24,610 bases of DNA from a virus. The translations under genes were made by a program, and so were the position numbers. The notes below the pieces were generated by a model. It saw nothing but the letters and a program-made list of their open reading frames with translations. It had not been told where the DNA came from and made no database searches. Positions within the stretch are counted from its first letter, which is position 1; the number at the start of each line of letters is the position of its first letter. Location: IMG/VR virus record IMGVR_UViG_3300006735_000239, positions 1-24,610 of that record. The stretch is one strand, 5' to 3'. Shown here in pieces: positions 1-21,497 of this stretch.

Positions 1-148
1 TCCATAACTTTATTCTTTTTAAGAAACGTAATTAGTTTTTTTACCTGTTTCATATTTTAACTTAATCATTTTTTTATCTACCTTGCAATCATTTTAAAAA
101 ATTGCCCTAGATTGCGTGTACGTGGTATATATAACACCTACACCCTAC

Positions 149-214
149 AAATATTGACTTTTCATATTCAATATCGTTGAAAATATTCGTTTGAATATTT
201 CTAAGTCAATATTT
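149..214. repeat. Nested inverted repeat (cruciform-like), candidate origin or operator
   Basis: The outer arms AAATATTGACTT (149-160) and AAGTCAATATTT (203-214) are perfect 12-nt reverse complements. Inside them ATATTCAA (164-171) pairs with TTGAATAT (191-198). A competing hairpin pairs AAATATTC (181-188) with GAATATTT (193-200) around a 4-nt loop. ATATTC/GAATAT recurs in both orientations. The element lies about 75 nt upstream of the first rightward gene. Nested AT-rich palindromes of this sort occur at replication origins and repressor operators; which of these applies is inference. Confidence 0.6.
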
Positions 215-239
215 GCTTAACGGGCGTAGCTGCACCTTC

Positions 240-253
240 GGGGGCAAGCCCCC
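240..253 (+). promoter_or_regulatory. GC hairpin upstream of the first early gene
   Basis: GGGGG (240-244) and CCCCC (249-253) form a 5-bp stem with a 4-nt CAAG loop, the most GC-rich spot in the neighbourhood. It is followed by TAATAATAATAAAA rather than a T-run, so it is not a normal terminator. It ends 34 nt before the ATG at 288. It could be part of a 5' UTR structure or, by analogy with N4 early promoters, a hairpin promoter. The function is not shown. Confidence 0.35.
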
Positions 254-287
254 TAATAATAATAAAACAAAAGAAAGAGAGTTAACA

Positions 288-743: not shown

Positions 744-762
744 TTATCGTTAATCTAACAGT

Positions 763-974: not shown

Positions 975-1007
975 AAGATTTTTATTAACAACAAGAGAGG
1001 TGCAAAA

Positions 1008-1962: not shown

Positions 1963-1973
1963 ACAAGATAGTG

Positions 1974-1999: not shown

Positions 2000-2021
2000 T
2001 GCGATTTAAAAGGGAAATAAT

Positions 2022-3627: not shown

Positions 3628-3673
3628 TCACATTACAGTTCCTTGTATTAAACAAGTTCCTGAGTGGCTTAAA

Positions 3674-3766: not shown

Positions 3767-3772
3767 AAATAT

Positions 3773-3832: not shown

Positions 3833-3852
3833 AATTATAATTAGGAGAAAAA

Positions 3853-5339: not shown

Positions 5340-5535
5340 ACTATCTGAAATGGATGCAGTTAGACAAGAGTTAGATAAGCTAGATGATAGAAGCGTATCT
5401 GAACTTGCCTTAGATGCACAACGAAAAATAACAGATCAAATAGCTTTACTTGAAGACTTAGGATATGAATTTATGTATGTCCAAGACGGTAAAGGTAGTA
5501 TGGTAACATCAATACGCAGAAAGAGAGGTGTGTAA
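5332..5535 (+). CDS. Hypothetical protein, 67 aa
   Basis: Not recognised. It is a two-part small protein: an acidic helix with heptad-like Leu/Val spacing (MDAVRQELDKLDDRSVSELA) and a short beta-prone basic C-terminus ending in RRKRGV. AAGGAGT lies before ATG 5332, which overlaps the preceding gene by 8 nt, and its stop overlaps the next start as TAATG. Confidence 0.7.
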   Translation: MGKLSEMDAVRQELDKLDDRSVSELALDAQRKITDQIALLEDLGYEFMYVQDGKGSMVTSIRRKRGV

Positions 5536-6008
5536 TGTCAACAAGATCAAACATCGTATTTAAAAGAACCGATAAAGAAGGTTTTAAAACAGTAAAAGCA
5601 GTTTATTGTCACTTTGACGGTTATCCTGGTTTTGTAAGAACTAACGAAATGATAGGTGGAGTTGGTTATGAATTACTAAATCATTTTAATACTCAATCAC
5701 AAGTAGATGAAATAGAACTTAAATCTATTCGTTCTATATCTGATGCTGATATTGAATATATGGGTAAAAAAGAAGAATACGATTCATATGAAGATATAAA
5801 ACAGTATTTTCGTATGACACAAGGAGATGTATGGATTGAATATATCTACTATTGGGACGGTGTTCAATGGATGATGTCTGAATTAACTTACTTAGATGTA
5901 GATAAAAATGATTATGAAGATACATCAATACCAGTAAGAACTAAATTCAAACCATTGGAAATTGTAATAAATGAAATTACTAGTACAATAGCACCAGATG
6001 ATGAATAA
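5535..6008 (+). CDS. Conserved phage protein of the MSTRSNI...YCHFDGYP family, 157 aa
   Basis: The opening MSTRSNIVF and the YCHFDGYPGFV segment (about residues 24-34) are the hallmark of a phage family seen in many unrelated phages, normally written as M-x-TRSNI...YCHWDGYP...VG. Here the usual GVG after the Tyr-Pro is displaced but GGVGYELL follows at about 41-48. No function has been established for the family as far as I know. It is 157 aa, within the usual range. A GAGAGG site and a TAATG overlap support ATG 5535. The C-terminal half is acidic and aromatic (IEYIYYWDGVQWMM). Confidence 0.8.
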   Translation: MSTRSNIVFKRTDKEGFKTVKAVYCHFDGYPGFVRTNEMIGGVGYELLNHFNTQSQVDEIELKSIRSISDADIEYMGKKEEYDSYEDIKQYFRMTQGDVWIEYIYYWDGVQWMMSELTYLDVDKNDYEDTSIPVRTKFKPLEIVINEITSTIAPDDE

Positions 6009-6225
6009 ACATTATGTCGTTTCAGTAGCAGAAAGTCATCCAGATCCAAACTATATAGTGTTACTTAAAATACTATCAGTTAAACACTATCAAGCAGCTA
6101 GAAATGCTGAATTTCATCCTAACTATGCTACAGAGGAAGAAGCTAAAATATGGCACAAAAAGTTGCTTGATCAACTATCAAAGGAGGGATTTACATGGAA
6201 AGTGGTCCGAGTAAAACCAATATAA
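5998..6225 (+). CDS. Hypothetical protein, 75 aa
   Basis: Not recognised. It is a small alpha/beta protein with N-terminal beta (YVVSVAESHPDPNYIVLLKI), a helix with His and Trp (EEEAKIWHKKLLDQL) and a final beta strand (TWKVVRVKPI). The first two codons are both ATG, so the start is 5998 or 6001. No good ribosome binding site is visible and it overlaps the previous gene by 11 nt, so translation is probably coupled. Its tail overlaps the next gene by 31 nt and contains that gene's strong AAGGAGGGA. Confidence 0.65.
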   Translation: MMNKHYVVSVAESHPDPNYIVLLKILSVKHYQAARNAEFHPNYATEEEAKIWHKKLLDQLSKEGFTWKVVRVKPI

Positions 6226-6527
6226 CTTACACTGACATATATGGTTATGAACATACTACAACAAGAAAGTATACTAAATTTCCATACGATATGTCTGAGT
6301 GTAAGTTCCTAGATCATGAAGACATCGATTTAGATGTTAGAAATCCTTTTAGTGGTGAATCTTACAAACTATCACCAGTAGAAGAAGCAGTATACAGAAA
6401 AATAATGAGAGCACAATTAAAATCGCCTAATTATTTTCTGGATCCTGATGCACAAAAAGTTGTACGCAAAGGTTTAGATTGGTTCAAATGGAACAATGCT
6501 AAAGCGTACATGAAACTATTAGATTAA
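6195..6527 (+). CDS. Hypothetical protein, 110 aa
   Basis: The segment RNPFSGESYKLSPVEEAVYRKIMRAQ (about 49-74, quoted here as a helical motif around NPFSG and SPVEEAVY) resembles a short conserved block I recall from uncharacterised phage proteins, in which NPFSG is followed by a helix; the family is unnamed to me. The start is set by AAGGAGGGA (6180-6188), one of the strongest ribosome binding sites in the window. The 31-nt overlap with the upstream gene is the longest in the early half. Confidence 0.75.
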   Translation: MESGPSKTNITYTDIYGYEHTTTRKYTKFPYDMSECKFLDHEDIDLDVRNPFSGESYKLSPVEEAVYRKIMRAQLKSPNYFLDPDAQKVVRKGLDWFKWNNAKAYMKLLD

Positions 6528-6537
6528 GGAGGAGTCT

Positions 6538-6618
6538 ATGTTGAAATTACTTCTATTGTTTGCATTGTGTTACGGTATATTATATGCTTGTAATTATGTA
6601 AATAAATCTGATAAATAA
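6538..6618 (+). CDS. Very small membrane or lipoprotein-like peptide, 26 aa
   Basis: ATG 6538 follows AAGGAGGAG (6526-6534) at ideal spacing, 11 nt after the previous stop. The product begins MLKLLLLFALCYGILYAC and ends in a short polar tail with NKSDK. The Leu-rich stretch of about 15 residues ending in LYAC could be a short membrane anchor, or a minimal lipoprotein signal with Cys18 as the modified residue. Phages use tiny lipoproteins in lysis and exclusion, but none of that is shown here. The perfect ribosome binding site is the main reason to accept it. Confidence 0.65.
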   Translation: MLKLLLLFALCYGILYACNYVNKSDK

Positions 6619-6628
6619 TAACAATAAT

Positions 6629-6679
6629 GCTTGGATAATTGAACTGGTAATACTAATTTGGTTGTCCAAGCTAACCAAA
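6629..6679 (+). promoter_or_regulatory. Candidate pseudoknot translational operator before the annealing-protein gene
   Basis: GCTTGGA (6629-6635) pairs exactly with TCCAAGC (6665-6671), and TTTGGTT (6657-6663) pairs exactly with AACCAAA (6673-6679). The two 7-bp stems interleave, so together they form an H-type pseudoknot ending 4 nt before GGAGG (6684-6688). The T4 gene 32 mRNA has a pseudoknot leader through which its ssDNA-binding product represses itself. A similar control of this recombination operon is an attractive inference. Confidence 0.5.
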
Positions 6680-6694
6680 AAACGGAGGAATCTT

Positions 6695-7276
6695 ATGGGA
6701 TTTAACCTTAAAGATTATGCCTTAGTGAACGATCGTATTAAAGAATTTCATAATATGTATCCACACGGCATGATAGTGACTGAAGTACTAGAAGTCACAC
6801 AAATAATAGACACACCAACTGGAGAACAATGCAATGAATACAGAATCCAAGCAAAAGTCACGCCCAATGTACTCGAAGTACCAGAAAGATACTTCACTGG
6901 AACAGCAGCTGAGCGAGACAATACTGGTTTTGTTAATAAGACGAGTGCTATGGAAAATTGCGAGACGAGCGCCGTTGGTAGGGCATTGGCCAATATGGGT
7001 ATTGGTGCAGATTTTGCCATTGCTAGCAAAGAAGAAGTTGAGAATGCTAAGGCAAAACAATCAGTATTCAAACCTAAAGTTAAGGAACTTACAGAAATTG
7101 ACACGCTTGCAAAAAAGTGTGAAAAAGCTCAAGTAATTCCCGAAGAAGCTTATCTAGCATATACTAAAAAACGTGAAAGCGGATTTTATGATACTGTTGC
7201 TAGAGTAAAAACAGCTAAGAAATACTTTGAAGATCAACTTAAGGAGGCAAAAGATGTCAAAAAAGAAAATGCCTAG
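6695..7276 (+). CDS. ERF/Rad52-like single-strand annealing protein, 193 aa
   Basis: The centre (about residues 80-118) reads TSAMENCETSAVGRALANMGIG followed by ASKEEVENAKAK. This TSAxGRALAxxGIG...AS.EEV..A pattern is characteristic of phage ERF-superfamily recombinases. These bind ssDNA as multimers and anneal complementary strands for recombination-dependent replication and repair. An N-terminal beta-rich part comes first (IVTEVLEVTQII, YRIQAKVTPNV) and a Lys-rich helical tail ends the protein. ATG 6695 is chosen because GGAGG (6684-6688) fits it; an upstream in-frame TTG at 6662 lies inside the pseudoknot and lacks a site. It leads the recombination/replication operon and is followed two genes later by the SSB, its usual partner. 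Confidence 0.8.
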   Translation: MGFNLKDYALVNDRIKEFHNMYPHGMIVTEVLEVTQIIDTPTGEQCNEYRIQAKVTPNVLEVPERYFTGTAAERDNTGFVNKTSAMENCETSAVGRALANMGIGADFAIASKEEVENAKAKQSVFKPKVKELTEIDTLAKKCEKAQVIPEEAYLAYTKKRESGFYDTVARVKTAKKYFEDQLKEAKDVKKENA

Positions 7277-7508
7277 TGAACATAGAATAGGTTCTATGCA
7301 ACCTGGAGAGACAAAACATATAGTAAACGACTTTGGTACTTTTGTTTTAATTAGAATACCATTCGAAAAAGACGAATTACTAGATGTAGAATTAGCAGAC
7401 TATGCTAAATCAATGGATGCACTTAGCACTTATATTGAAAGTATCAATCAAGGGCTAATTGACGGTGCACATGAACGTAATCAAGATCACGCTAATGACC
7501 AAAAGTAA
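7254..7508 (+). CDS. Hypothetical protein between annealase and SSB, 84 aa
   Basis: Not recognised. The start at 7254 is fixed by AAGGAGG (7241-7247), and the gene overlaps the annealase stop by 23 nt. It has a basic N-terminus (MSKKKMPSEHR), a beta-prone middle (FGTFVLIRIPF), and an acidic helical C-terminus with several His residues. Its place between two ssDNA-handling proteins suggests a recombination accessory role, but no motif supports a specific one. Confidence 0.75.
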   Translation: MSKKKMPSEHRIGSMQPGETKHIVNDFGTFVLIRIPFEKDELLDVELADYAKSMDALSTYIESINQGLIDGAHERNQDHANDQK

Positions 7509-7519
7509 GGAGGTATCAT

Positions 7520-8047
7520 ATGGCAATCACGGGTACTAAGGTAAAGTCATCGCAAGGTGGCGGCAATAAACCTTATTTCATTAATAAATGTAAAATTATT
7601 GCAGCAGAACAAATTGAATCACAGTATACTGATACAACAGTTAAATTAGAACTTGAAGATTCTACAAATGGATACAAATCTAATTTATTCTTAAATCAAA
7701 ACTATGATAAAGATACAAATGGTGTAGTCCTGGATTTAAAATATCCTGACTTAGTTAATACATTGTATCTTGCAGCTGGTAAAGATTTAGAAGTATCAGA
7801 CACTGGCGATATTAATTTAGATGTATTAATGGATTCTGAAATTGCAGTACTTAGTTATCAGTCTACTGGTAAATACAAACGCAATCTTTGGAACAGAGTT
7901 TCTTCTTGGGATAAAACAGATCAACTCGAGAAAGACTTTAAGAAATCATTAGAACAAGGTTATCCTCAAAACTTTCGTAAAGGAACATCAGAACCTGCCG
8001 TACCTGAAGTTCAAGAAAGTGTAAATGATGATGACTTTCCATTTTAA
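7520..8047 (+). CDS. ssb: Single-stranded DNA-binding protein, 175 aa
   Basis: The first 125 residues are beta-rich with alternating hydrophobic positions (KCKIIAAEQI, TTVKLELEDS, SEIAVLSYQS), consistent with an OB fold. A Pro/Glu-rich linker of about 25 residues follows. The protein ends in DDDFPF, the acidic-aromatic tail through which SSBs recruit partners (bacterial consensus DDDIPF). It should coat ssDNA at the phage fork and hand it to the annealase and helicase-primase encoded next to it. The core does not obviously match E. coli SSB, so it is a divergent phage version. AAGGAGGT (7507-7514) is a near-perfect ribosome binding site, and the stop overlaps the next start as TAATG. Confidence 0.8.
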   Translation: MAITGTKVKSSQGGGNKPYFINKCKIIAAEQIESQYTDTTVKLELEDSTNGYKSNLFLNQNYDKDTNGVVLDLKYPDLVNTLYLAAGKDLEVSDTGDINLDVLMDSEIAVLSYQSTGKYKRNLWNRVSSWDKTDQLEKDFKKSLEQGYPQNFRKGTSEPAVPEVQESVNDDDFPF

Positions 8048-8313
8048 TGACTGCTAAAACTATTGTTATCAATTGGCTTGACTCTTTAGAAAATGGTGAA
8101 GTATTCTTTACCTGGAACTTTGAGAGTCAAGTACCACATTATGGTAAAATCAAGTATAACAAAATACATACGGCAAGTACATATTCCAGAGCATTTAGAA
8201 AGTTGCGTGAAGAAAATATATTCACGGACGAGCTTATGGGATTTGCACTCAAAGAAGTTAAATCAGCAACTAATGGGAAAATAAAAGGATGGAAGAAGAT
8301 AAATACTTTTTAG
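8047..8313 (+). CDS. Small putative winged-helix-like DNA-binding protein, 88 aa
   Basis: The central part (about residues 40-58, HTASTYSRAFRKLREENIF) looks like the recognition helix of a helix-turn-helix: Ser/Thr cap, Tyr, Arg and a following Leu-rich helix. The wing could be the strand pair after it. The N-terminal WLDSLENGEVFFTWNF resembles the first helix and turn of such folds. It lies between SSB and primase-helicase with 1-nt and 25-nt overlaps, so an origin-recognition, loader or autoregulator role is possible. No family match is claimed. Confidence 0.7.
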   Translation: MTAKTIVINWLDSLENGEVFFTWNFESQVPHYGKIKYNKIHTASTYSRAFRKLREENIFTDELMGFALKEVKSATNGKIKGWKKINTF

Positions 8314-10124
8314 AACTAGTAGAAGGTGGTCTATCCGAACGTAACACTGTTGCTAATGTTAATACCTATCAAAAGAAAGTAACAAAGAATGCATTTAAGA
8401 ATGAGATGTATCGTTCTTATTTTACATTTGGTAAAGACTTTCAAGAACATGTACACAATACAAATTCAGTAAAAGGATTCAACGGTATTGCATATATCGA
8501 TTACATTATATTAGACATCGATAAAGGCGAAATACCTAATGATCATTTTATTGGATATATACAACAATGTGTATCTGAAATGTTTGATAAGGGAGTAATG
8601 GAAGAAGACATAAACTTATGGTTTAGCGGTAGCGGTTTCCATATTGAAATACAGAATGTATTTGGTTTACAGCCAAGCAGAGATATACACGATAAGCTTA
8701 AACTAACAATGAATAAGCATTTCGACTTTGCAGACAGCATCTATGATAAGACAAGGATCATTCGATGCAAATGGTCGTTAAACACAAAAACAAACCTCTA
8801 TAAAATATGGATACCGTTGCAGCTATTGTCAGAACTAAGTATGGAAGACGTACAACAAATGGCAAGTAGCGAAGGCAGCTATATGAGTTATGTCAATAAA
8901 ACACAAGCGAGTATGAACGAAAGTTTCTTTAGTACTTTATTTAAAGAACCAAGCGTAGAACCGTATTTACAATCTATGGTTGTTGCATCGCCTACTATTC
9001 AGTATGATAACAAGAATACCAAAACAGATTCAGACGTTACATCAGTAGTTTCTTGTATGCAGCACGTATTTAACGAAGGTCCTATGAAAGGTTCTAGAAA
9101 TATGAAACTAATGCGAATGGTTAGTGCATACAAAAGAGCTGGTGTTCCAATGTTAGTTGTCCTCAATGGTATGTTTACCTGGGCAAATAACACAATGTCC
9201 GAGGAAGAAATAACAAGAACAGTATCAAATGTTTATGAAGGTTCTTATCAATATGGTTGTGATGACCACATTATGGCAGAATATTGCGATTCAAAATGTA
9301 TTTATTACAAACGTAAAGACTATACCTTAGATATTAAAGGTGTAGATGCATTAGAAGATGCATTAAGAACCTATGTAACAAAACAGTTAGAACAAAACTC
9401 TATCAAGCTAGAAGATATATATGGCTCTAATCCATATCAATTTAGTCCTGGCGAGTTGGTTATATTCTCTGGTGATACTGGTCTTGGTAAGACTGCGTTC
9501 ATACAAGATCTAATTGTGAAAGCAAAACAAAATACATTGTTCTTGTCGTTAGAAATGAACGAACAGCTTATCTTTAGACGATTTGTGCAAATTGCTACAA
9601 ACAAACCTAAAGAATGGGTTTTACAACAATACAAGGAAAATCCAGACTTTAGTATTAAAGATAAGTTAGATCACATACAAGTAATGACAATAGCACCAAG
9701 GATAGACTCTATCAAGAAAGTAGTAGCAGAATATGAACCAAAAGTTCTAGTTGTAGATACTACTGACGAAGTTGAAGTTGATTTTGTAAAAGGTGAAATA
9801 GAAAAGCAAAACGTAGTTATAGGTGCATTAAAACAAATAGCACAAAAAACTAACGTAATTATTATTGCAATACATCATCTTAACAAAACATCAGCAGCTA
9901 ACAATGTTATTAATCTACATTCTTTGAAAGGTAGTAGTAATGTTGTACAAAAAGCAGATAAGGTTCTATTAATTAAAGGTAATAGAAACGATCCAGCTAG
10001 AGAAATTACATCAGTAAAATCTCGTGACGAAGGTCAATTTAAGATGTTAGCTGCATTTAATGCAACGAACATGACATTTAAACAAATAAACGGAGGAAAT
10101 ACATATGTTGAAGAAATTGTTTAA
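8289..10124 (+). CDS. AEP primase (PrimPol) fused to RecA/DnaB-type replicative helicase, 611 aa
   Basis: Primase part: the archaeo-eukaryotic primase motifs are all visible. They are LDID (D76, D78), SGSGFH (113-118, H118), and the third acidic site (D146/D149) with R156/R159 and N165-T-K167. A middle domain has four cysteines, C256, C324, C333 and C337, in the order seen in PriL-type C-terminal iron-sulphur domains. Helicase part: Walker A GDTGLGKT (395-402), Walker B VLVVD (D490), the HH pair (529-530), LKGSSNVVQKAD (547-558) and the KSRD motif (577-580) of SF4 helicases. One polypeptide would prime and unwind at the fork, like T7 gp4 but with an AEP in place of the Toprim primase. ATG 8289 overlaps the upstream gene by 25 nt, so translation is probably coupled. 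Confidence 0.88.
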   Translation: MEEDKYFLELVEGGLSERNTVANVNTYQKKVTKNAFKNEMYRSYFTFGKDFQEHVHNTNSVKGFNGIAYIDYIILDIDKGEIPNDHFIGYIQQCVSEMFDKGVMEEDINLWFSGSGFHIEIQNVFGLQPSRDIHDKLKLTMNKHFDFADSIYDKTRIIRCKWSLNTKTNLYKIWIPLQLLSELSMEDVQQMASSEGSYMSYVNKTQASMNESFFSTLFKEPSVEPYLQSMVVASPTIQYDNKNTKTDSDVTSVVSCMQHVFNEGPMKGSRNMKLMRMVSAYKRAGVPMLVVLNGMFTWANNTMSEEEITRTVSNVYEGSYQYGCDDHIMAEYCDSKCIYYKRKDYTLDIKGVDALEDALRTYVTKQLEQNSIKLEDIYGSNPYQFSPGELVIFSGDTGLGKTAFIQDLIVKAKQNTLFLSLEMNEQLIFRRFVQIATNKPKEWVLQQYKENPDFSIKDKLDHIQVMTIAPRIDSIKKVVAEYEPKVLVVDTTDEVEVDFVKGEIEKQNVVIGALKQIAQKTNVIIIAIHHLNKTSAANNVINLHSLKGSSNVVQKADKVLLIKGNRNDPAREITSVKSRDEGQFKMLAAFNATNMTFKQINGGNTYVEEIV

Positions 10125-10368
10125 CGCACAATATGTAGATAAGAATAATATACAAAAAGCAGAATTGCGTTTGCTAAAGTTTATTGTTCTTTCAACAAGA
10201 ATGGATAATAATTTTGGTAATCATTTATGGTTTGATACCAGATTCGGTCCAATGGAATTTTCATTTGGTCTCAGATACTGGGATGAATCACCAGAAGCTA
10301 TTAAAAGATACGAGGAAGATTTCAACATCGTTAGTATGCAAGGAAATCTTGGCGGAAGTGACGCATAA
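10105..10368 (+). CDS. Hypothetical protein, 87 aa
   Basis: Not recognised. It is a mixed protein with a basic N-terminus, a helix (KAELRLLKFIVL, about 18-29) and an aromatic segment (HLWFDTRFGPMEFSFGLRYW, about 40-59). GGAGGA (10091-10096) precedes ATG 10105, which overlaps the helicase gene by 20 nt. Its stop lies just beyond the likely start of the resolvase gene, so it is part of the same co-translated replication unit. Confidence 0.75.
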   Translation: MLKKLFNAQYVDKNNIQKAELRLLKFIVLSTRMDNNFGNHLWFDTRFGPMEFSFGLRYWDESPEAIKRYEEDFNIVSMQGNLGGSDA

Positions 10369-10702
10369 GAATAAAGTACGTGGTAACAATCTCGAACGTG
10401 AGATAGTAAACGAAGCTAAGGACATGGGCATGTATGCAAAACGTGCCTATGCTTCCGACGGTAGATCATTAGGAAAGTCAGAAGTAGTTGATGTGATAGT
10501 AGAAGATACTACAATACAAGCAAAACGAAGAAAGAAAGTTGCTCAATGGTTGTATCCAGACTATCACGGAGACGACGTAGATGCAGTTGTTACACGTATG
10601 GATAGAAAAGAAGCTCTTGCTATAATACCATTAAAGAGATTTTTAAGATTATTGCAAATTGAAAAGGAGAATCGTGATGGATTTGAACAAGAAAGAAGCT
10701 GA
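10358..10702 (+). CDS. Hjc-like Holliday junction resolvase / PDDEXK nuclease, 114 aa
   Basis: The sequence has RGNNLEREIVNEAKDMG, then RAYASDGRSLG, EVVDVIV and IQAKRRK. This is the arrangement of the PDDEXK fold in archaeal-type resolvases: a Glu on helix 1 (about E13), the Asp of EVVDV (about D42) and the QxK lysine (about K52), with the GRSLG loop between them. It would cut branched DNA made by annealase-driven recombination. No ATG lies at a sensible place; GTG 10358 is chosen, with TTG 10349 as an alternative, both served by AAGGAA (10340-10345). An ATG start further upstream (10184) would lie entirely inside the preceding gene. The 3' end overlaps the next gene by 26 nt. Confidence 0.75.
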   Translation: MTHKNKVRGNNLEREIVNEAKDMGMYAKRAYASDGRSLGKSEVVDVIVEDTTIQAKRRKKVAQWLYPDYHGDDVDAVVTRMDRKEALAIIPLKRFLRLLQIEKENRDGFEQERS

Positions 10703-10853
10703 AGCTATACTATCAATAGCTAAGAAGATTATTGTTGCATTAGAAAAAAATAACAATAAAATTGTAAGATCAACCGAAGATAGGTTTGATCACGATGATA
10801 TTGATTTAACTGGTGTTAGAGCACCAGAAAAATGTGAAGAATGTAACGATTAA
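10677..10853 (+). CDS. Hypothetical protein with C-terminal CxxC, 58 aa
   Basis: Not recognised. AAGGAGA (10664-10670) fits ATG 10677; GTG 10674 directly before it is a less likely start. The N-terminal 25 residues form an amphipathic helix (EAEAILSIAKKIIVALEK). The C-terminus has an Asp/His-rich stretch and CEEC near the end. The lone CxxC could bind metal only with other ligands or as a dimer. It closes the replication operon before the structured RNA at 10877-10997. Confidence 0.7.
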   Translation: MDLNKKEAEAILSIAKKIIVALEKNNNKIVRSTEDRFDHDDIDLTGVRAPEKCEECND

Positions 10854-10876
10854 AGTTGTTTATTACCATAAACAAA

Positions 10877-10997
10877 AACTGCCCGCTTATGAAAATACAT
10901 GTTTGGTTGGCTACTAAAACAAGACATAACTTAGTCGCTATGTCTTCGTATTTATGTATAGATAATCTAAAAGAGATTACAACATGAGCGGGCGGTT
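10877..10997 (+). ncRNA. Candidate multibranched structured RNA C, about 121 nt
   Basis: AACTGCCCGCTTAT (10877-10890) pairs with ATGAGCGGGCGGTT (10984-10997), 14 bp with two wobbles. Inside there are three further helices. ATACAT (10895-10900) pairs with ATGTAT (10954-10959). Nested in that is AAGACATA (10921-10928) with TATGTCTT (10939-10946), 8 bp. Next to it is TAATCT (10963-10968) with AGATTA (10974-10979). The whole folds as one compact multibranched unit between the last replication gene and the 43-aa gene. The T-loop-like GGTTCGAAA at 10994-11002 lacks a matching arm, so it is not a tRNA. A 32-codon ORF inside it has no ribosome binding site. Confidence 0.55.
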
Positions 10998-11013
10998 CGA
11001 AAGGAAAGCAAAT

Positions 11014-11145
11014 ATGGACAAAGTAGAAAAAGAAATGTTTTTAAAGGAAACAAAAGAACTTATAGGATTAACAGAAGAAGCAATAAATCTTTTGACACAA
11101 AAACAAAAAAGGTTAAAAGATTTGTTGCGTATTTTAAAAAAATAA
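11014..11145 (+). CDS. Small helical protein, 43 aa
   Basis: ATG 11014 follows AAAGGAA (11000-11006) at good spacing. The product is a single Lys/Glu/Leu-rich amphipathic helix, with LIGLTEEAINLLTQKQKRL in the centre and a basic end (RILKK), likely a coiled coil. It is the last rightward gene and stops 23 nt before the end of the giant leftward gene. Structured RNA C directly precedes its ribosome binding site. The function is unknown; size and helix type would fit a small host-takeover factor or a protein inhibitor. Confidence 0.6.
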   Translation: MDKVEKEMFLKETKELIGLTEEAINLLTQKQKRLKDLLRILKK

Positions 11146-11164: not shown

Positions 11165-11215
11165 AGCGTCAAGTCGTTGGATCTTCGTTAATCTCTCTCT
11201 GTTCGGCTTGACGCT
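11165..11215. terminator. Convergent (possibly bidirectional) stem-loop terminator
   Basis: AGCGTCAAGTCG (11165-11176) pairs with CGGCTTGACGCT (11204-11215), 12 bp with one wobble and a 27-nt loop. It lies exactly where rightward and leftward transcription meet. Read leftward it is followed by GTTTTCAT, and read rightward by TTACTTTT, so it has a modest T-run on both sides. The stop codon of the giant gene (11169-11171) is inside the stem. The long loop and short T-runs make it weaker than a textbook terminator. Confidence 0.6.
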
Positions 11216-14200
11216 TTACTTTTGCCATATGCCATTTAAAACTGTTATATGGTAATCCAGTCTGATATTCTACGGCATATTTAGGATTATTATATGTCTT
11301 GTACATATCACGCATAAGTCTACCACCTGGTGCATAAGTCCATAAAGTGTATTTAGTAAATGCTTCCCAATCACCATTTATAATACCATTTAAAGGAGGT
11401 AATATAAATCTACTAGCTGGAGGTGTAATAATTTGTAATGGTGCTAATTGTCTTATTGGATATTGACTAAAGAATGCATTTTTTCTAGTTTCTTCATCGC
11501 CAAATAAAAACTCCGCACTCTCTTTCATCCAAGACATAGGAGGTGCTAAAGCATATTCAAATATAGAGTATGCAAACAATGTACCTAATGCCATTGTCAT
11601 CATATCGTTAGCAACTTGTCTTTGAAAACGTCTACTAGCTTCAAAATTAGGATGCCCTTCTACTGCCATCATATCTTCAAACACTTGTTTCCTACGTCTT
11701 ATACTGTTCCAAGCGTATGGTTGAAAACGTGTCATAACTCTACCAAACGCTGTATTACTAAAGTTTGGTCTGTATGTAGCGTGATAAATAAACTGTGAAC
11801 CTTCTACGCCTTTTCTTGCTGTGTCTACTAAAAAGTCGTCAGTTACTTTTATATTACCTTCTAGATCAGAATATATTTCTCTAGCTTTCAAATAGTGTGC
11901 TAAAAACGCTTTACGTCTTAAATGTTTTTCTGTAGTAGACATAAAGAAACTACCTTTATCCATAACGGCTTGACTTACTCCGTACTGATTAGCTAATTCT
12001 TTTACAGTTTTATTAACATAATCATCAATTTGTTTGTTTATTTCTTTAGTATTTCCAAATAACTTTTGTGATCTTGTATGTGCATTTACTTTTTTAACTA
12101 ATTCTTTTAAAAACTTTTTAGCATTTACTGGTTCATTTGCTTGTATGTATGCTAATTCTTGCAACAAATTACCTTCTAGTAGTCCTAAAGAATCAATCAT
12201 TTCATGTATATCTTCTTTATTTTTTAACTCTCTAAACTCAAACTTACCTAGTTCTTTATTAAATAATTTAAACTTTTGACCTCTAAATACTTCATTTATT
12301 AGGTATTTTTCATCAAATGCCTTAAAAAAGTGGTCAAAACCAGTATCTGTAATAATATTTTGATAACCTCCGTATACATTAGTAATAGCTGCTTTAGGCG
12401 TAAACAATAATGATAACAATTCAAATCTACCTTCTAGATCTGATATATATTGTGCACGCTCTACTAAAGCTTTATGTCTTAATTGTATATCGTCTGGTAA
12501 TTTAGGAAATAATTTTTTACCTGTAATTTTACCAAAAACACTAGATACATTGTTTTCTAGCTTTAATGCAACATTACCAACACTTTCATCACTAAACCAT
12601 TGTCTTGGTGTCTTGGTAATATTTAATTTATCTATGTTTTCATCTTTAATAAAGTCGTTTAAGTTTTTTAAAGTCTCTTTTTTTAGATAAGTAGCATATT
12701 GTTTTTTAACAAGTTCAAACATTTTTTGTTTTAAATTTGCCATTTCAACTATTATTTCTTCTTTACGACTTTCATTTTTAACATCTTTTAATTCTTTGCG
12801 TAGCTCATTTAACTTATTACCATTTGTAGACTTGTAAGCATTAACAATTAATTGACGTTTTTTCATACGTTGTTCACTTAAAGTAGGTATAGATTGTTGC
12901 TCTAAATCATAAAGTAGTTTTTTGCTCACAACATCTAACTTTCCAACTTTCCAACTTTGATCAAATCCAGATGCTTGCCATTCTTTTAATAGCTGCATTT
13001 CTTTAGCCGTTACACCATGCACTTCTAAAACTCTTGTTGATGGGAATCCCATATAACCCCTAGTAAAATCAATCATTGTAGTATGCCATAATTCAGCATT
13101 TTCACGCATACGTGGATTTTGTCTAGCTTGTGTTAAAAATTTATCTAAATAAATTCTACTATACATTGCACCTATATTCTGCATTAATCCTCTACTTAAA
13201 CTATTCATATAGTCTAATGGTACATTACCATCACTTCTCCAACCAGGCATAGAACGTTCTAAACGTGATCTTGCGTGAGTTGTTGTACCCATACCAGGAT
13301 AAGGATTTTTTCCTTTTCTAGTGCTTACTTGATTTAACATGTCCATAGCATCTAAATCTATATAAGGATTTTCGTATTTATTCATACCTAAAAGTTTATT
13401 CTCTAGTCTTTGGTATTCTAATTCTTTTGCTTCTTTAAATGTAATTAATCTATTTTTTACATCATCACGCAAATTAGCATCTACTAATTGTAGGTAATTC
13501 TTTTTCTCCATAATACGTTTTTTCTCAGAAGGTAGCCAATTCTCTTCTAAAAACTTTTTATTTAAATTAGTATCCATTTGTCCCATTTGTGGAAAGAATC
13601 TATCAGAAACACCATCTTCAGCAAATTTACCAACTTCACTTGACCACTCTCCATACTTACCAGTAAAGTTTTGTATATCTTTACGAACTTTATCTGCCAT
13701 GCTTATAGTTTTCTTACCAACTTTAATTTTGGTTCTGGTTAATGCACCCCAATCTAATGAACCACCTTTAGTTACGTATTCAGAATATTTATCAAGTATA
13801 TGATCACGTAAATTTAAATGAAATTTTATCCAAACAACATCGTCATAATGAAAATGATTTTTCTGTAAATCAAATCCTGTTTGTTTGTCTGCTTGTAAAC
13901 GAACTGTTTTATCAAACCATAATAATCTACGAACTTCTATAAGTCCGTGTTTATTTAAAAACAATTGAGCCATACGTTGTTGCCAATATTTTGGATGAGT
14001 TTCTGGCAATGTTTTTTTACCAAAAAATTCTACAGGGAATAAATTTTGTTGTGCAAATAATTTATCTATATTTTTGTAATTACTTTTAATCATACTATTC
14101 AAAGAATATTCCATAATAGGTTGTATTACTTTAGTTCTTATTATATCAGCATATTCTACAGCATCTACAAATTCCTTGTTTCCGTTTTTATCTATGTAAT

Positions 14201-17200
14201 AAAATTTTTGTTTTATCTTTTTTAATTCTTTTTCTGCTTTATCAAAACGTTTCAACAAATCTACTTGTTCTTCTACAGTTGTTTGATTCTTTTTAGGTCC
14301 AAGATTATCATTACCAAGTGTATGTTTAACTGCTGCATATTCCCATAATGCTGGTCCATGATCTTTATAACCTTTTTGAGATTCATTTAAAACTTTTTTA
14401 ATCAAACCAACATACTTGGTATTAAAGTCTGATAACTGATTAGCATTTACGTGTAATCTGTATATTGTATCAGCAATAGTTTTTAATGTAGAGGTAGGTA
14501 CGCTAATACCATACTCTTCCATTTGTCCAGTCTTTTCGTTGAATTTTAATACCCTGTCAAATTGTAAACGTTGTTCATAAGGAGCAATCTCTCTATTTAA
14601 TCTTTGATAAATACCTAAAACCTGGTCTAACCCCTTAGGATCACGCAAATGTGCTCTACTTGGATTTAATATATTAATTTCATTAGTAATTAATTCAGAC
14701 AATCTAGAAGGTTCTAACTCTTGTATATAAACAAATTTGTTATTTGCTTTTTCAAAAGCTTCTCTAGTAGCAAATTTTTGTATCTTTTGTGTTTTTTCAT
14801 TATATGCATATATAAATTTATCAGAATCTTTTAATATCTTAGCTTCAGTTTTATCTGCAACTTCATTAATTGCATCTTTATTTCCTTTTGCCCAGCTTTC
14901 TACATACACTTTATATTGCTGCGATATAGCCATAAACTCTTCTTTTGTATTTTCTTTAACACGTTTTTTGTAAAACTCGTCAAAAGTATCTAAAGGAATA
15001 TCGTTAGTTATATCTGCTTTAATTGTATTTTCTGCTTCTTCTAACAACTCTTTGTTTCTTTTAATCTTTGTTAACACATCTTCTTTTCCGTACTTATTAT
15101 TCATTGCTTTCATAAAGAAACCAAAACGTGTACCATCTATGTTCTGCATAAAATCAGATACTCTATCTACACGTTTTAAGAAGAATGCATATTCACTTGG
15201 TAGATTAAACAAGAGCTTTTCATTACCAACTGCTGTTTGTGAATAAATTAAATTTCTTAATTCTTTTAAGTTTTCTCTTAACTGAGGAGTTTGCGTTTTC
15301 TTTAAAGGTTGTAAGCTTTCTATCAATGCGTCAAGTTTTGCAGGATCAGTTAATATATCTAAATCAATTAAGTCGGGAACCATTTTCTTTGTTTTTAGTA
15401 CAACTTGTTTACCGTCACTTTCTACTTTAGACTGTCTTCCGCTTGGTGGGGCATTTAAATCGTCCATTACAACTTCTTCAAATTTATCTAAATCTAACTC
15501 TTTACGTATTTCTTTAATTCTTTTCTCTCTTGATTCTTGAGAAAGTTTTAATGTTTCATATCTAGCTCTAGACATATACTCTTTATTTTTAGCTCTTATA
15601 GCCCAAGTTTGTTCACGATCAGGCAATTGCCCTGTAAACTCTCCCTGCAATGCAGCTCTTTGTGCATATAAATTTTCCAACTCTACATCTTTATTAAAAA
15701 ACTCTCCAAGTTTTTCTTTTTGCTGTTTTTCTTTTACTAATTCATTGATTTTACTGTTTACTGATTTTAAAAATTTAAAACGATTTTCTCCTCTAAATCC
15801 TACAAAATCAGATTTAATCAATGGAGTCGCTATATAAAACATATCAAATAAATCTTCTACTTTTTCAAAAGCTTCTTTTGGTAATGGCTTACCTTCTTCT
15901 TTTCTTCTATTAGATAACTCCTGTAATTGTTCTCTTAATATTACTTTGGTATAAGCTATTTGGTCTCCATAAGAACGTCTATTATGTTTTTTAAAATACT
16001 TTTGGTCGTTGGTAAACGATTGATATAATCTATTACGCTGTTCAAATGTAAGCTCTACAACCTGTGTAATAAAATCATCTACAGATTCATTAGTCATTTC
16101 TAATTCTTTCATAGCGTATTCTTTAAATTCATTAGACTTTCTTAAAGCAGTAGACAAATCTATAACTTGATTTAGTTTGTTCCATAAAAATGTTTCATAC
16201 TCAACAATGTTGTCAAACTCTTTAGGATCTAATCCTTTCATAAAATGCTCAGAAAAATCTTTTATTCCTACTTTGCGATATATAGGATGATTTTTTATTT
16301 CAGCAGATATGTCCTTTAAAAGTGCTACGCTTTGTTCTTTACTAAATACATTCCAAGGATTTAACTCTAAACGCAATCCATTATATTGTTCTGCTATTAA
16401 AGTTAAATAAGATTTAGCACCATCAGTTTTATCTAAATAGTTAATTACTGTTTCTTGTATATCTAAAGGCATATCTGTTTTACGTTTAGCACCAAACACT
16501 AATTTGTGCATATTTTTAATAGCTTGTCTTCTGTCCATCATTGCACCAGACTCTGCTCCTTCATACATCCACTCATACATTCCACGCATTTTACGTAAAG
16601 CAACGATAGGTAAATCTATATTAGCAAGATCTGCTGCATCAATATAACTGTTTAATAATACGTTTCTATGTATAATTAATTCATTGAATGCATTTAAATA
16701 ATTTTTACGCATAGACTCACGCTGTACTTCTGTAGTACGAGGAGTAACATCTTCTAATTGTTTATTAATATCTAACTCTAAACCAATTAAATTAACACCA
16801 TTAGTAATTAAACCAATAGAGTCCTGAGACATTGTAGCAATTTTACCATTTTTTAATTTAGTAGTAGTATCTAAAATATCTGCTAAATGCTGTTCTCTTT
16901 TTTTATTACCTGGTGGTTCTGCATTTGCTAACTCTTTACCAATAGCTTTATCTTTTAAATCTACAGTATCTTTCTTTCCGTCTTTAATACGAACTAACTG
17001 ATCTTGTATCATAGATTGTTTGTATGCAGCAGTCAATTCTTTCGGTAATCCCCAAAACATATGTGCAGAGTCAATGTCTTTATCAGCACCAGACATCATA
17101 AAATCGTTATATTCATTTGTAATTAATGATATACCTTTACGTGTTTTAGCAAATCCTACAAACTCTCCTATACGAAAACCACCATTACTTATCATAGGTG

Positions 17201-20200
17201 AACGTATAAAACCTACATTTTTACGAACAAAATCATACTCTTCAAAATCACGTTGTGATTTCTTGCTAGAAGGATTTTCTTTCATATCTACCCAAGTATC
17301 CCAAAACTTTCCAAGTGTCATTGTTTTTTCGTTTTTCTTACCTTCATATACAGTTATTTCAATAACATCTCTTGCACCTTCATTCATCATAAATTCGTCG
17401 TTTGCAAGACCTTTCTTTGCTTTAGAGTACTTTTGCTTACGTCCACTAATTAAAACGTCATATAACCCTAATTTAGAGCTATATGAATGCTTTATGCGTG
17501 GCCTAGTAAGTCTTTTAGCTACATATTGTTGTATTCTATCATTAATATACTCTCTAACTCCAGGTCTTAAATACGTACCAGGATCGAAATTAGTATCTAT
17601 TAAATACTCTTCTACTAATTGTCTATTGTAAGTATTTTGACGATATTCAGTCCATTCCTGCATAGCTACTTTATCAAAATCAGATAAACGTTCTATTTCT
17701 AAAATTTGTTTTACGATGCTACGAGCTGCTTTGCTATCAGGTTTTTCAAAAAGTATATGATCTAAAACTTTTATACTTATATCATCTATCTTACCTGACA
17801 ATTCTTTTCCTGCAGCAAATTCTTTTTCTGCAAGCATTGTTGCTTTAGGATCTCCAGCTGATGCTTTAGCTACAAGTTCTTCCCACTTTTTCCAATAATT
17901 TCTACCTATTTCAGTGTTAGGATCCATTTCAAAGGTATTCATATTAGACATAACCTGCTGCAATAGTTTTTGATTACCTATTTTATTAAAGTTTTCATAA
18001 ACATTTAAATTCAAATAGTTGTCTTCTATTCTAGATTTAAATACATTCAATTTACCGACAAGTTCAAACTCTTTTGTTTTTTCATTCCAACGTACTTTAG
18101 TTGGTTCTACTCCAGTCATTTCTTTAATACCAGAAGCATAATGTATTTTATCTAGACCATGTTTATCTGCAAAAGCTTGCCAATAACTATCCATAGTAAA
18201 ATCAGCAGTCTTATTAATTATTTGTCCTTGAACGCCATATTCAGGTCTAAACAATCCTAATGTTTTCATTACACCTGTTCTAGGATCGTAACCATAATTC
18301 TTTATAATAATATCAGCTAACTTGTTGTGTGTCATTGTAACACCATCTGTACCAGAATTATTTTCTTTTAATGCTTCACCCATATTTTTTACACTACTAG
18401 GCAAATCTTCTATTACAATATGTCTAAAAGTAGCACCGTCATATCTTGAAGTAACATTCATATCTATTCTGCTTAAAGCTTCATACTCAGGTATTTTACC
18501 AAGTTGATTAAAACTTAGTTCATTAAACTTGTCTTGCAAACGGTATGTATTAGACTCTATAGTTTCTAATACTTTCTTATTATGTTCTTTTACACGCTTT
18601 ATTAGCTCAGGATTATCTTTTTCAAATTGTGCATATCTATCATTATTAACTTTACTAGAACGCTCACCATACAATGTAATATATGTGTTTTCAAATATTG
18701 GTTCCATATCAATATCTGTATAACGTTTATCGTTTAAAAATCTGTTAATAGCATCAACATCTAATGATAGTTTAATGTCTGTAAAATTTTTAGGATTAAA
18801 AGTTTCTGTATTAATTTGACGTGTTTTTGTAATGTTTTTATATCCAATAAAATATGCTGGATCTAAGGCCATTTCAATACCAGAATGATGTTTAGTACGT
18901 TTTTGGAATTTAGTTACACTTTCATAAGGTTCTGTTTTAACCCATTCACGTATCAATTCTTTAGTAGGCATTTCTCCTAATCTAATTAATCCTGTTTCTT
19001 GCATACGCCACATTAAAGTAGCAATATTACTTTTATATCTAGCTTTAGTAACTGGTATTTTTAATTCATTAATTAAAAAGTTATTCAATGCTTTAATGTC
19101 TTTTAGCTTTGTGCCTGTTCTCCAAGGATATGCTCTTACTTGTATTCTACCAGTTTCACCGTTAGCAGCGTAAATAAATGCACCTTCTTTTTCTAGCTGT
19201 TTAGCCATATTAGTTAATTGTTTATTAGTCATATGTTCTGCTAATTCTAACGGCCTAATACGCTTACCTTTGCTATCTGTTTTACCTTCAGGTATATATC
19301 TAAAAATATCTACAGATAACGGTGAAACATTTTTAACTCTAGGTCTATTTTTATATTGATTAGATTGATGATCCCATATACGTTCTAATATACGAGTAGT
19401 TAAATAATCATAATCGTAATGTAATGTATCTCCCTCTTTAGCATTAAAATTATTGTTTTTATTTACACGGCTAGAACCATGCGTAGAGTTACCTGCTTTA
19501 TCGCCACCTATAGGTTTATCGTAAATATCAGTTTCAGGAGCTTCTTTTTCAAGCAATGGATCCATTTCTTTTTCTTGTTTTAAACTTTTTTCACCTACTA
19601 TGTAAACTCTAGATATAGGAAAACGATCAATGTTTTTTAAATAATGCGCAGATTGTATTAAATCTCTTTGTTGTTGTTCATTAATATTAATTCTATATTT
19701 TTTTACAACATCTCTTACAAAAGTGTTTACATCATAATTTGCATCGTCTATAGTCTTTTTAAACATATTGTGCAAATCTTGTACACTTGCACTTTTATTT
19801 TTACGTTTAACTTCAATAAATATATCTTTTAAAGATTTCTGTTTAGGCAAATGTTCAGACAACGGATCAACTTCTTGTACCTGATATTCAATAGTTCTAC
19901 CATCTTCTAACGTAATAGAGTCTAATCTAAATTTTTTTTGTTCAATATCTTTAGCAACTTGTTCTGTGTCACCTATTTGTTTTTCTGTACGATTAGCTAT
20001 GATACTTTCTTCTACTTCAGCTTTTTGTTTATCTAAAGCATCATACATTTCAGATAATATTTTTTCTTTAGCTTTGCGATCTGTTTTAGCTTTTTGTTCC
20101 ATTTCAGGAGTAATGATACCTTTTTCTTTTAACTCTTTATATGTTTCTGCATAAGCCAAAACAATATCGTCAAATTGAGTAATAGTATAATCTATCTGCT

Positions 20201-21497
20201 GTTGTTGTATATTTTTTAAATACCTACTCCAATATGCTTGATACTCAGGAGTTTCGTTTTGATACCAAGGTTGTTCGGTAAGCCATTTTCTAGCTTGTTT
20301 CATATTATAATCTCTTGGTATTGCATTCATAGAGTTGTATATATCTCTAGTAGCTCTATTCTCAAAAGATGCTCTACTGTTTACACTAAAAAACGCAGCT
20401 AATAATGTTTCATATATTTGATCTTCTAATGGTAAATCATTAAGTTCTGAAGTAACTGTACCATAACCTACTCCTGCACCACCACGCATAATAAAATTAA
20501 TAGTGTTATATTGGTCAATTCTATTTGGTTGTGTTCCTAAAGCTTTAGCAAAACTACGTACAACATTTTCACCAGAAGTTCTTACTATCTTATTGCTGCT
20601 ACCTAACATTCTACCAATGTTTACATACTCACCAATACCTCCAAAGATTGCACCTGCTACAGCTCCATGAACACCAGCTAAAGCCATACCTTTTATACCT
20701 TCGCCTCTAGTACCTAAAGGTTGTGCAGACATAGCCATTAATAAACTTAAGTGTATAGATTGATTTACAATGTTTTCTACAGCACCTTTATCTATGTACT
20801 TACTCTTAAGTATCCCTTTATTCATATACTCTAAGACTCTTACATTGTTATTGTGAAGTCCTTTAGTAGCTTGTTTTTGAATAAAGTTTGCTGCTAAGCC
20901 AGGAAAAGATACAAGACCATACAAAGGTTGTCCTGTTTGAGGATCAAAGCCAGTAGGAGAACCTTTCATTCTAGTAAGTCTAGCCATAGCATCCATACCT
21001 TTTTTAATCTTTAGATTGCTATTTTCCCAAGACTGCGAACTTTCATCTAAACGATCAGCAATTTTTGCTATACGTTCATTCTTACTTTTTCTAGCTTTTT
21101 CTCTTAAACCACGACTTACAACACCTGCTGCAGCTCTACCACCAGTAATAGTAGAAACTACTAAACTTGGTGCTAAACCAATTAAGTGTCCAACATTACT
21201 AGCTATACGTTCTGCGGATGTATCAGGCGTATCTGCAAAACCAAAAGTTGTAAAACCTTCAATTAACCCAGATACCGTTTGTGCTAAAATACCATCAGTA
21301 CGGCCTTGTCTACCTTCTGTAAGAGGTAGTCCTGCTTCATTAATTTTAGTCTCCATAAAACGCAGACTACGTGTATCAAATGATGTAGGCGTACGATCAT
21401 AGAACTGTTTAAGGCCCATAGCAAATTGAAATTCATCAATTCTACCGCCTTCAAGTTCATTTTGAAGTAATTCTATTCTTCTATCTAACTTGAACAT
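11169..21497 (-). CDS. Giant virion protein, 3442 aa, putative two-barrel virion RNA polymerase / ejection protein
   Basis: One uninterrupted frame of 10.3 kb. Hydrophobic Gly/Ala-rich segments at about 101-127 and 268-295, and another at about 3300-3326, could insert into the host membrane during ejection. The candidate polymerase core starts with SGTDGVTM (D1051, G1052), followed by K1078 and K1096, as in the first double-psi barrel (beta-like). Next come R1432-S-P1434 and SGADKDIDS (D1472, D1474, D1476), the position and spacing pattern of the metal-binding second barrel. D-x-D-I-D matches the DFDID form reported for crAss-like phage virion RNAP better than cellular DFDGD. Long Lys/Glu-rich helical stretches fill the rest. 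It follows gp14/gp15-like genes, so it occupies the gp16 slot. The start lies 3 nt after the upstream stop with no clear ribosome binding site. The CDS is certain; the RNAP role is inferred. Confidence 0.9.
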   Translation of the reverse strand: MFKLDRRIELLQNELEGGRIDEFQFAMGLKQFYDRTPTSFDTRSLRFMETKINEAGLPLTEGRQGRTDGILAQTVSGLIEGFTTFGFADTPDTSAERIASNVGHLIGLAPSLVVSTITGGRAAAGVVSRGLREKARKSKNERIAKIADRLDESSQSWENSNLKIKKGMDAMARLTRMKGSPTGFDPQTGQPLYGLVSFPGLAANFIQKQATKGLHNNNVRVLEYMNKGILKSKYIDKGAVENIVNQSIHLSLLMAMSAQPLGTRGEGIKGMALAGVHGAVAGAIFGGIGEYVNIGRMLGSSNKIVRTSGENVVRSFAKALGTQPNRIDQYNTINFIMRGGAGVGYGTVTSELNDLPLEDQIYETLLAAFFSVNSRASFENRATRDIYNSMNAIPRDYNMKQARKWLTEQPWYQNETPEYQAYWSRYLKNIQQQQIDYTITQFDDIVLAYAETYKELKEKGIITPEMEQKAKTDRKAKEKILSEMYDALDKQKAEVEESIIANRTEKQIGDTEQVAKDIEQKKFRLDSITLEDGRTIEYQVQEVDPLSEHLPKQKSLKDIFIEVKRKNKSASVQDLHNMFKKTIDDANYDVNTFVRDVVKKYRININEQQQRDLIQSAHYLKNIDRFPISRVYIVGEKSLKQEKEMDPLLEKEAPETDIYDKPIGGDKAGNSTHGSSRVNKNNNFNAKEGDTLHYDYDYLTTRILERIWDHQSNQYKNRPRVKNVSPLSVDIFRYIPEGKTDSKGKRIRPLELAEHMTNKQLTNMAKQLEKEGAFIYAANGETGRIQVRAYPWRTGTKLKDIKALNNFLINELKIPVTKARYKSNIATLMWRMQETGLIRLGEMPTKELIREWVKTEPYESVTKFQKRTKHHSGIEMALDPAYFIGYKNITKTRQINTETFNPKNFTDIKLSLDVDAINRFLNDKRYTDIDMEPIFENTYITLYGERSSKVNNDRYAQFEKDNPELIKRVKEHNKKVLETIESNTYRLQDKFNELSFNQLGKIPEYEALSRIDMNVTSRYDGATFRHIVIEDLPSSVKNMGEALKENNSGTDGVTMTHNKLADIIIKNYGYDPRTGVMKTLGLFRPEYGVQGQIINKTADFTMDSYWQAFADKHGLDKIHYASGIKEMTGVEPTKVRWNEKTKEFELVGKLNVFKSRIEDNYLNLNVYENFNKIGNQKLLQQVMSNMNTFEMDPNTEIGRNYWKKWEELVAKASAGDPKATMLAEKEFAAGKELSGKIDDISIKVLDHILFEKPDSKAARSIVKQILEIERLSDFDKVAMQEWTEYRQNTYNRQLVEEYLIDTNFDPGTYLRPGVREYINDRIQQYVAKRLTRPRIKHSYSSKLGLYDVLISGRKQKYSKAKKGLANDEFMMNEGARDVIEITVYEGKKNEKTMTLGKFWDTWVDMKENPSSKKSQRDFEEYDFVRKNVGFIRSPMISNGGFRIGEFVGFAKTRKGISLITNEYNDFMMSGADKDIDSAHMFWGLPKELTAAYKQSMIQDQLVRIKDGKKDTVDLKDKAIGKELANAEPPGNKKREQHLADILDTTTKLKNGKIATMSQDSIGLITNGVNLIGLELDINKQLEDVTPRTTEVQRESMRKNYLNAFNELIIHRNVLLNSYIDAADLANIDLPIVALRKMRGMYEWMYEGAESGAMMDRRQAIKNMHKLVFGAKRKTDMPLDIQETVINYLDKTDGAKSYLTLIAEQYNGLRLELNPWNVFSKEQSVALLKDISAEIKNHPIYRKVGIKDFSEHFMKGLDPKEFDNIVEYETFLWNKLNQVIDLSTALRKSNEFKEYAMKELEMTNESVDDFITQVVELTFEQRNRLYQSFTNDQKYFKKHNRRSYGDQIAYTKVILREQLQELSNRRKEEGKPLPKEAFEKVEDLFDMFYIATPLIKSDFVGFRGENRFKFLKSVNSKINELVKEKQQKEKLGEFFNKDVELENLYAQRAALQGEFTGQLPDREQTWAIRAKNKEYMSRARYETLKLSQESREKRIKEIRKELDLDKFEEVVMDDLNAPPSGRQSKVESDGKQVVLKTKKMVPDLIDLDILTDPAKLDALIESLQPLKKTQTPQLRENLKELRNLIYSQTAVGNEKLLFNLPSEYAFFLKRVDRVSDFMQNIDGTRFGFFMKAMNNKYGKEDVLTKIKRNKELLEEAENTIKADITNDIPLDTFDEFYKKRVKENTKEEFMAISQQYKVYVESWAKGNKDAINEVADKTEAKILKDSDKFIYAYNEKTQKIQKFATREAFEKANNKFVYIQELEPSRLSELITNEINILNPSRAHLRDPKGLDQVLGIYQRLNREIAPYEQRLQFDRVLKFNEKTGQMEEYGISVPTSTLKTIADTIYRLHVNANQLSDFNTKYVGLIKKVLNESQKGYKDHGPALWEYAAVKHTLGNDNLGPKKNQTTVEEQVDLLKRFDKAEKELKKIKQKFYYIDKNGNKEFVDAVEYADIIRTKVIQPIMEYSLNSMIKSNYKNIDKLFAQQNLFPVEFFGKKTLPETHPKYWQQRMAQLFLNKHGLIEVRRLLWFDKTVRLQADKQTGFDLQKNHFHYDDVVWIKFHLNLRDHILDKYSEYVTKGGSLDWGALTRTKIKVGKKTISMADKVRKDIQNFTGKYGEWSSEVGKFAEDGVSDRFFPQMGQMDTNLNKKFLEENWLPSEKKRIMEKKNYLQLVDANLRDDVKNRLITFKEAKELEYQRLENKLLGMNKYENPYIDLDAMDMLNQVSTRKGKNPYPGMGTTTHARSRLERSMPGWRSDGNVPLDYMNSLSRGLMQNIGAMYSRIYLDKFLTQARQNPRMRENAELWHTTMIDFTRGYMGFPSTRVLEVHGVTAKEMQLLKEWQASGFDQSWKVGKLDVVSKKLLYDLEQQSIPTLSEQRMKKRQLIVNAYKSTNGNKLNELRKELKDVKNESRKEEIIVEMANLKQKMFELVKKQYATYLKKETLKNLNDFIKDENIDKLNITKTPRQWFSDESVGNVALKLENNVSSVFGKITGKKLFPKLPDDIQLRHKALVERAQYISDLEGRFELLSLLFTPKAAITNVYGGYQNIITDTGFDHFFKAFDEKYLINEVFRGQKFKLFNKELGKFEFRELKNKEDIHEMIDSLGLLEGNLLQELAYIQANEPVNAKKFLKELVKKVNAHTRSQKLFGNTKEINKQIDDYVNKTVKELANQYGVSQAVMDKGSFFMSTTEKHLRRKAFLAHYLKAREIYSDLEGNIKVTDDFLVDTARKGVEGSQFIYHATYRPNFSNTAFGRVMTRFQPYAWNSIRRRKQVFEDMMAVEGHPNFEASRRFQRQVANDMMTMALGTLFAYSIFEYALAPPMSWMKESAEFLFGDEETRKNAFFSQYPIRQLAPLQIITPPASRFILPPLNGIINGDWEAFTKYTLWTYAPGGRLMRDMYKTYNNPKYAVEYQTGLPYNSFKWHMAKVKRQAEQREINEDPTT

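Follow-up and report, generated by a model that had tools for sequence, protein, structure and literature searches.

A giant two-barrel RNA polymerase, most likely a virion protein, predicted in uncultured phages of about 45 kb

The polymerase within gp50 of coliphage N4 is of the T7 type. It occupies residues 1007-2101 of the protein, and a C-terminal domain follows that runs to 3,500 aa (PMC12633501). Two-barrel RNA polymerases (RNAPs), remote relatives of the transcription enzyme found in all cells, have been established as virion components in crAss-like phages and in phage P23-45 (PMC7886860, PMC10770324). Here, we describe a giant gene in a stretch of viral DNA of 24,610 nucleotides (IMG/VR record IMGVR_UViG_3300006735_000239, positions 1 to 24,610; the window). 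The product of this gene is very likely a giant single-chain RNAP that belongs to the two-barrel (double-psi beta-barrel) superfamily and is most probably a component of the phage particle. Computation places a two-barrel polymerase core, with an intact and strictly conserved active site, at aa ~1024-1800; in addition, we infer RNA synthesis and promoter use by the giant protein.

Gene setting and layout of the giant protein

The giant gene is the last of a leftward late block (Table 1), and its ORF is unbroken in independent IMG/VR contigs at 64-100% identity. The protein consists of an N-terminal module, the two-barrel RNAP, a long middle region and a C-terminal module, and profile matches across distant relatives fall into three main blocks (aa 1-450, the polymerase core and aa ~2950-3430). 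By hydropathy, the N-terminal module has weakly hydrophobic segments at aa 98-116 and 267-285; membrane anchoring via the end modules is a guess from such segments. No tape-measure family in Pfam or PHROGs matches the giant protein, nor does the Pfam model for T7-type polymerases (RNA_pol). An earlier note on this DNA had placed the giant gene among T7-like ejection genes. The position of the gene and the 166-aa lysozyme (PHROG matches to endolysin, 8.6e-13, and to internal virion lysozyme, 2.2e-10) agree with that description, but the 404-, 156- and 166-aa neighbours, which have no significant Pfam or PHROG match, do not bear it out.

Table 1. Features of the window, with positions, strand and supporting evidence
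Feature	Position	Strand	Evidence
Conserved non-coding element, single copy, upstream of first early gene	109..265	+	Near-identity in six genomes
Giant late-gene protein, 3,442 aa	11169..21497	-	ORF without interruption; intact in relatives
Conserved C-terminal module, aa 2930-3442	11172..12710	-	Relatives in 157 IMG/VR stretches
RNA polymerase region, aa 880-1799	16101..18860	-	AlphaFold2 model and Foldseek matches
Second-barrel motif, R-S-P then G-A-D-K-D-I-D, aa 1432-1477 (probable Mg2+ loop)	17067..17204	-	R, P and three D in 51/51
First-barrel motif, S-G-T-D-G ... K1078 ... K1096, aa 1048-1098	18204..18356	-	D1051, K1078 and K1096 in 51/51
Conserved N-terminal module, aa 1-450	20148..21497	-	Profile matches in distant relatives
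Late protein directly upstream of the giant gene, 404 aa	21501..22715	-	No significant Pfam/PHROG match
Late protein, 156 aa	22715..23185	-	No Pfam/PHROG match
Late protein, 166 aa	23185..23685	-	No significant Pfam/PHROG match
Lysozyme, 166 aa	23678..24178	-	Pfam Phage_lysozyme, E 2.7e-8

Longer contigs put the genome of the relatives at ~45 kb: in one of 45.7 kb (G004) the giant gene is split across both contig ends, and another of 44.3 kb (G003) is of similar content. The late block of the relatives encodes a terminase large subunit, a P22-type portal, an SU10-type capsid protein, a tail fibre and a metallophosphoesterase. Judged by the P22-type portal, the SU10-type capsid protein and the genome of ~45 kb, the phages are not Crassvirales; moreover, tblastn with the capsid and portal returned no crAss-like phage among the named organisms or hosts, 12 of the 27 portal records not being listed singly. 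The rightward early block of the window holds small ORFs, a DnaB-type helicase-primase and a RusA-like resolvase. An early ORF of 345 aa (window 2252-3289) matches DUF6878 (E 1.2e-7). No DNA polymerase and no second RNAP could be recognised in the scan (window 1-11100, G003 and G004), which took in the larger genes and part of the small ORFs. With a helicase-primase and a resolvase but no recognised DNA polymerase, the phage may rely on host replication.

A contig of 89.8 kb (G001, L111-L115) contains two related phage gene sets of ~45 kb, each with its own giant polymerase gene. Because the two sets are co-linear, the idea that the two giant genes are paralogues in one phage was rejected, and the contig probably represents two related genomes joined in assembly. 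Five phages that share the capsid family were also compared (Kuura, Tiera, Mel-JY34, CRP-810 and Aeromonas P5), the longest ORFs of which are of 1,361-2,026 aa; D-x-D-x-D is absent from the giant proteins of four of them. Direct insertion of the polymerase domain into an ejection protein of such phages is unsupported, as no family-profile match was significant.

Fold and active site of the polymerase region

Residues 880-1799 were modelled with AlphaFold2 from a 25-sequence alignment (pLDDT 74.8, pTM 0.68); the model of the C-terminal module was too poor for a fold search (pLDDT 53). The best Foldseek match in the PDB is the virion RNAP of phage phi14:2 (6VR4; E 4.4e-9, probability 1.00), and all 11 PDB matches at E<=0.001 are single-chain two-barrel RNAPs: 6VR4, eight QDE-1 chains and two RDR2 chains. 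Below these come weaker matches, which are large subunits of multisubunit RNAPs. For the 11 leading matches, TM-scores are modest (0.22-0.31 by query length) and rmsd values are large, which is not surprising when flexible multidomain chains are compared. The model puts K1078 and K1096 on adjacent strands of the first-barrel region and the three aspartates in a loop that precedes a strand of the second-barrel region. Two adjacent double-psi barrels appear to be present, a topology taken from the Foldseek matches and the order of the strands rather than from the coordinates. In a library of viral models, the top matches are unnamed proteins and proteins of crAss-like phages. A7XX94, which we take to be gp64 of P23-45, stands far down the match list. 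The earlier note had proposed a two-barrel RNAP and had set a structural model as a check beforehand; the match of the AlphaFold model to single-chain two-barrel RNAPs, together with the conserved active site, supports this identity.

A two-barrel enzyme need not make RNA. The two-barrel fold is also that of PolD (PMC4996933), and a primase-like or DNA-synthesising, PolD-like enzyme could replace the missing phage DNA polymerase, none being recognised among the larger genes scanned in a phage that has a helicase-primase. Yet the structural matches are RNA polymerases, PolD is found 0 times in 50 among the matches listed, and the gene belongs to the late block and not to the replication block, all of which makes this activity very unlikely.

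Sequence searches of Pfam, PHROGs and the PDB yielded no polymerase match to the giant protein; because the PDB search finds no RNAP, the case for homology rests on comparison of fold, motif and profile. When the 51-sequence core was compared by hhalign with a profile of crAss-type RNAPs (ten sequences, gp66 of phi14:2 and nine others), the score was 61.1 (E 1e-5), against a best score of 24.7 in 80 column shuffles. The match spans the second-barrel region only (156 columns) and brings R-x-P and D-x-D-x-D into register. The best alignment to gp96 of P23-45 falls at RNP...DFDGD, in the same register, with a score only slightly higher than that of shuffles (24.0 versus 21.6). From R-x-P to the first aspartate there are 40 residues in the window protein, 39 in gp66 and 38 in gp96. 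Family profiles were used here instead of the single sequence of gp66, comparison with which is uninformative. No relative of the giant protein was found in the search of bacterial and archaeal genomes, and no cultured relative in the collection searched; nor was there a convincing match among 50,697 catalogued phage records in the parts searched (aa 1-480, 850-1720 and 2930-3442 as protein; aa ~833-3442 as DNA).

The candidate active-site residues D1051, G1052, K1078, K1096, R1432, P1434, D1472, D1474 and D1476 had all been placed correctly in the 3,442-aa ORF by the earlier note. In close relatives (64-100% identity), D1051-G1052, K1078, K1096, R-S-P and GADKDID are unchanged wherever they are covered. 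Distant relatives were found first by pattern scans with active-site strings and by profile searches, which gave loci with giant ORFs whose polymerase region is down to 16-28% identical. Six of the residues (D1051, G1052, K1078, K1096, R1432 and P1434) did not guide this search, and all six rank within the top 38 of 920 columns by conservation in an alignment of 25 sequences that are 16-83% identical to the window protein. Because the first scans selected in part for the three aspartates, conservation was re-tested by an IMG/VR scan in which only the C-terminal module (aa 2930-3442) served as the query and the active site played no part. Relatives were found in 157 IMG/VR stretches; of the 80 loci retained, 79 were read. 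R-x-P and then G-x-D-x-D-x-D occur in every one of the 66 ORFs that extend into the core, so that the conservation of the three aspartates on which the earlier note had staked its claim extends to every distant homologue reaching the core. The other 13 loci, with shorter ORFs and a match close to the contig end, are read as ending before the polymerase core. When both searches are pooled, D1051, K1078, K1096, R1432, P1434, D1472, D1474 and D1476 are invariant in 51/51 non-redundant cores. Most of these cores came from searching that made no use of the active site; at position 1052, 38 have G, 12 have A and 1 has S.

The metal loop reads GADKDID, GADKDAD, GADKDGD, GADTDGD, GADYDGD, GADFDGD, GMDKDGD, GKDNDGD, GADNDGD or GADNDFD, depending on the relative. 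Constant aspartates with varying letters between them are as expected for a catalytic metal site, and we infer that K1078, K1096, D1472, D1474 and D1476 form the catalytic centre, the aspartates binding Mg2+. The D-x-D-I-D form had earlier been likened to that of the crAss-like enzymes. The likeness stands in that gp66 has GSDFDID and 6VR4 is the top structural match; D-x-D-I-D alone, however, is no crAss marker, as DKDAD, DTDGD and DFDGD also occur in the family. One locus (L178) has a canonical GADFDGD site, others (L171-L223) have GADTDGD and GMDKDGD, and the residue before the last aspartate (I, G or A) differs inside one family. Unlike its close relatives L094 and L098, L099 (9585-12344) has a long insertion in the second-barrel region; a DUF4326 match (E 2e-4) seen for one sequence in alignment A3 probably belongs to L099.

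Could these residues belong to something other than an active polymerase? Short as they are, and unaccompanied by any sequence match in the libraries or the PDB, the motifs (SGTDG, K, K, RSP and DKDID) might have arisen by chance and be unrelated to polymerases; we give this next to no credence, since it is contradicted by the unbiased conservation, by the fold match and by a profile match far above the shuffles. A catalytically dead polymerase fold, kept in a protein with a structural or ejection role, would suit a large late protein with conserved non-polymerase ends. Here, the catalytic-type residues do not vary even though identity across the rest of the core drops to ~16-20%, the opposite of a decayed enzyme, and a dead fold is accordingly extremely unlikely.

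Packaging, proposed mechanism and the element at 109-265

Packaging and injection of the polymerase seem most likely by analogy, given the position of its gene in the late block and the precedents. Alternatively, a two-barrel RNAP could be made during infection and act on later genes, being neither packaged nor injected. P23-45 has such a non-virion two-barrel RNAP, gp64 (PMC10770324). Against this reading speak a gene that ends the late structural block, the conserved modules that flank the polymerase and a layout of ~3,450 aa like that of N4 gp50; moreover, the larger genes scanned include no second polymerase candidate, although host RNAP could transcribe the early genes. We regard this alternative as unlikely. 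The giant RNAP would enter the particle together with the other late proteins and be ejected with the DNA, passing the portal partly unfolded. Most likely, it would transcribe the rightward early genes as the DNA enters, with no need for host RNAP; such transcription on entry is reported for crAss-like phages and P23-45 (PMC7886860, PMC10770324). Its N-terminal module, its C-terminal module or both might hold it near the inner membrane. The first promoter used might be the candidate element at 109-265.

This element lies between the late and early blocks and is nearly identical in six genomes, whereas the adjoining ORF is only 30-31% identical in two. It contains short inverted repeats (GGGGAC..GTCCCC versus GGGGGC..GCCCCC) in which the changes look compensatory. 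Rfam matches near the element all stay below the gathering scores and were discarded; when repeated early promoters were sought by k-mers, A/T tracts were most of what turned up. As a working hypothesis, the element is the best candidate for the first (entry) promoter of the RNAP, or for a leader.

Relation to known polymerases

No prior description of the giant-RNAP family was found in the open-access literature searched. It is probably a new family of virion two-barrel RNAPs, beside those known from crAss-like phages and a Thermus phage, and a large one, with 157 contig stretches in one scan, from uncultured, mostly marine phages of ~45 kb. The fuller proposal, of an undescribed and widespread family that combines an N4-style ejection layout of ~3,450 aa (membrane module, polymerase, C-terminal module) with a two-barrel enzyme in place of a T7-type one, both crAss-like DxDID and cellular-type DFDGD sites and a dedicated entry promoter at 109-265, is put forward tentatively, as quite possible. 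Its diverse single-chain polymerases, some with the canonical DFDGD, may help to reconstruct the diversification of two-barrel RNAPs, and the family yields the testable prediction that these marine phages carry out early transcription independently of the host.

Closest in fold, phi14:2 gp66 (6VR4) is likewise a giant late-gene protein with two barrels in a single chain. In both proteins R-x-P is followed, ~40 residues on, by G-[SA]-D-x-D-I-D (RIP...GSDFDID in gp66). However, gp66 has 2,180 aa and is encoded in a Crassvirales genome of 100 kb rather than ~45 kb, and the window protein carries extra N- and C-terminal modules. Thermus phage P23-45 also embeds a two-barrel RNAP in a giant virion protein, gp96; there, the polymerase is N-terminal in a tail tape measure of 5,002 aa, has no clamp and belongs to a long-tailed phage (PMC10770324), whereas the window polymerase lies mid-protein in phages that are known here from their genes alone and have structural genes of podovirus type. 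QDE-1 and the eukaryotic RNA-dependent RNA polymerases (2J7N, 7Y7S, 7EU1), which make up PDB matches 2-11, are single-chain two-barrel enzymes too, but are cellular enzymes of RNA interference without phage modules. In architecture, the nearest relation is with gp50 of N4 (Schitoviridae). The parallel in size drawn in the earlier note is correct and extends to the order of domains, gp50 having ~3,500 aa with an N-terminal domain, a central RNAP and a C-terminal domain (PMC12633501). The fold of its polymerase is unrelated to that of the two-barrel enzyme, so that an N4-like giant late protein would house a second polymerase fold.
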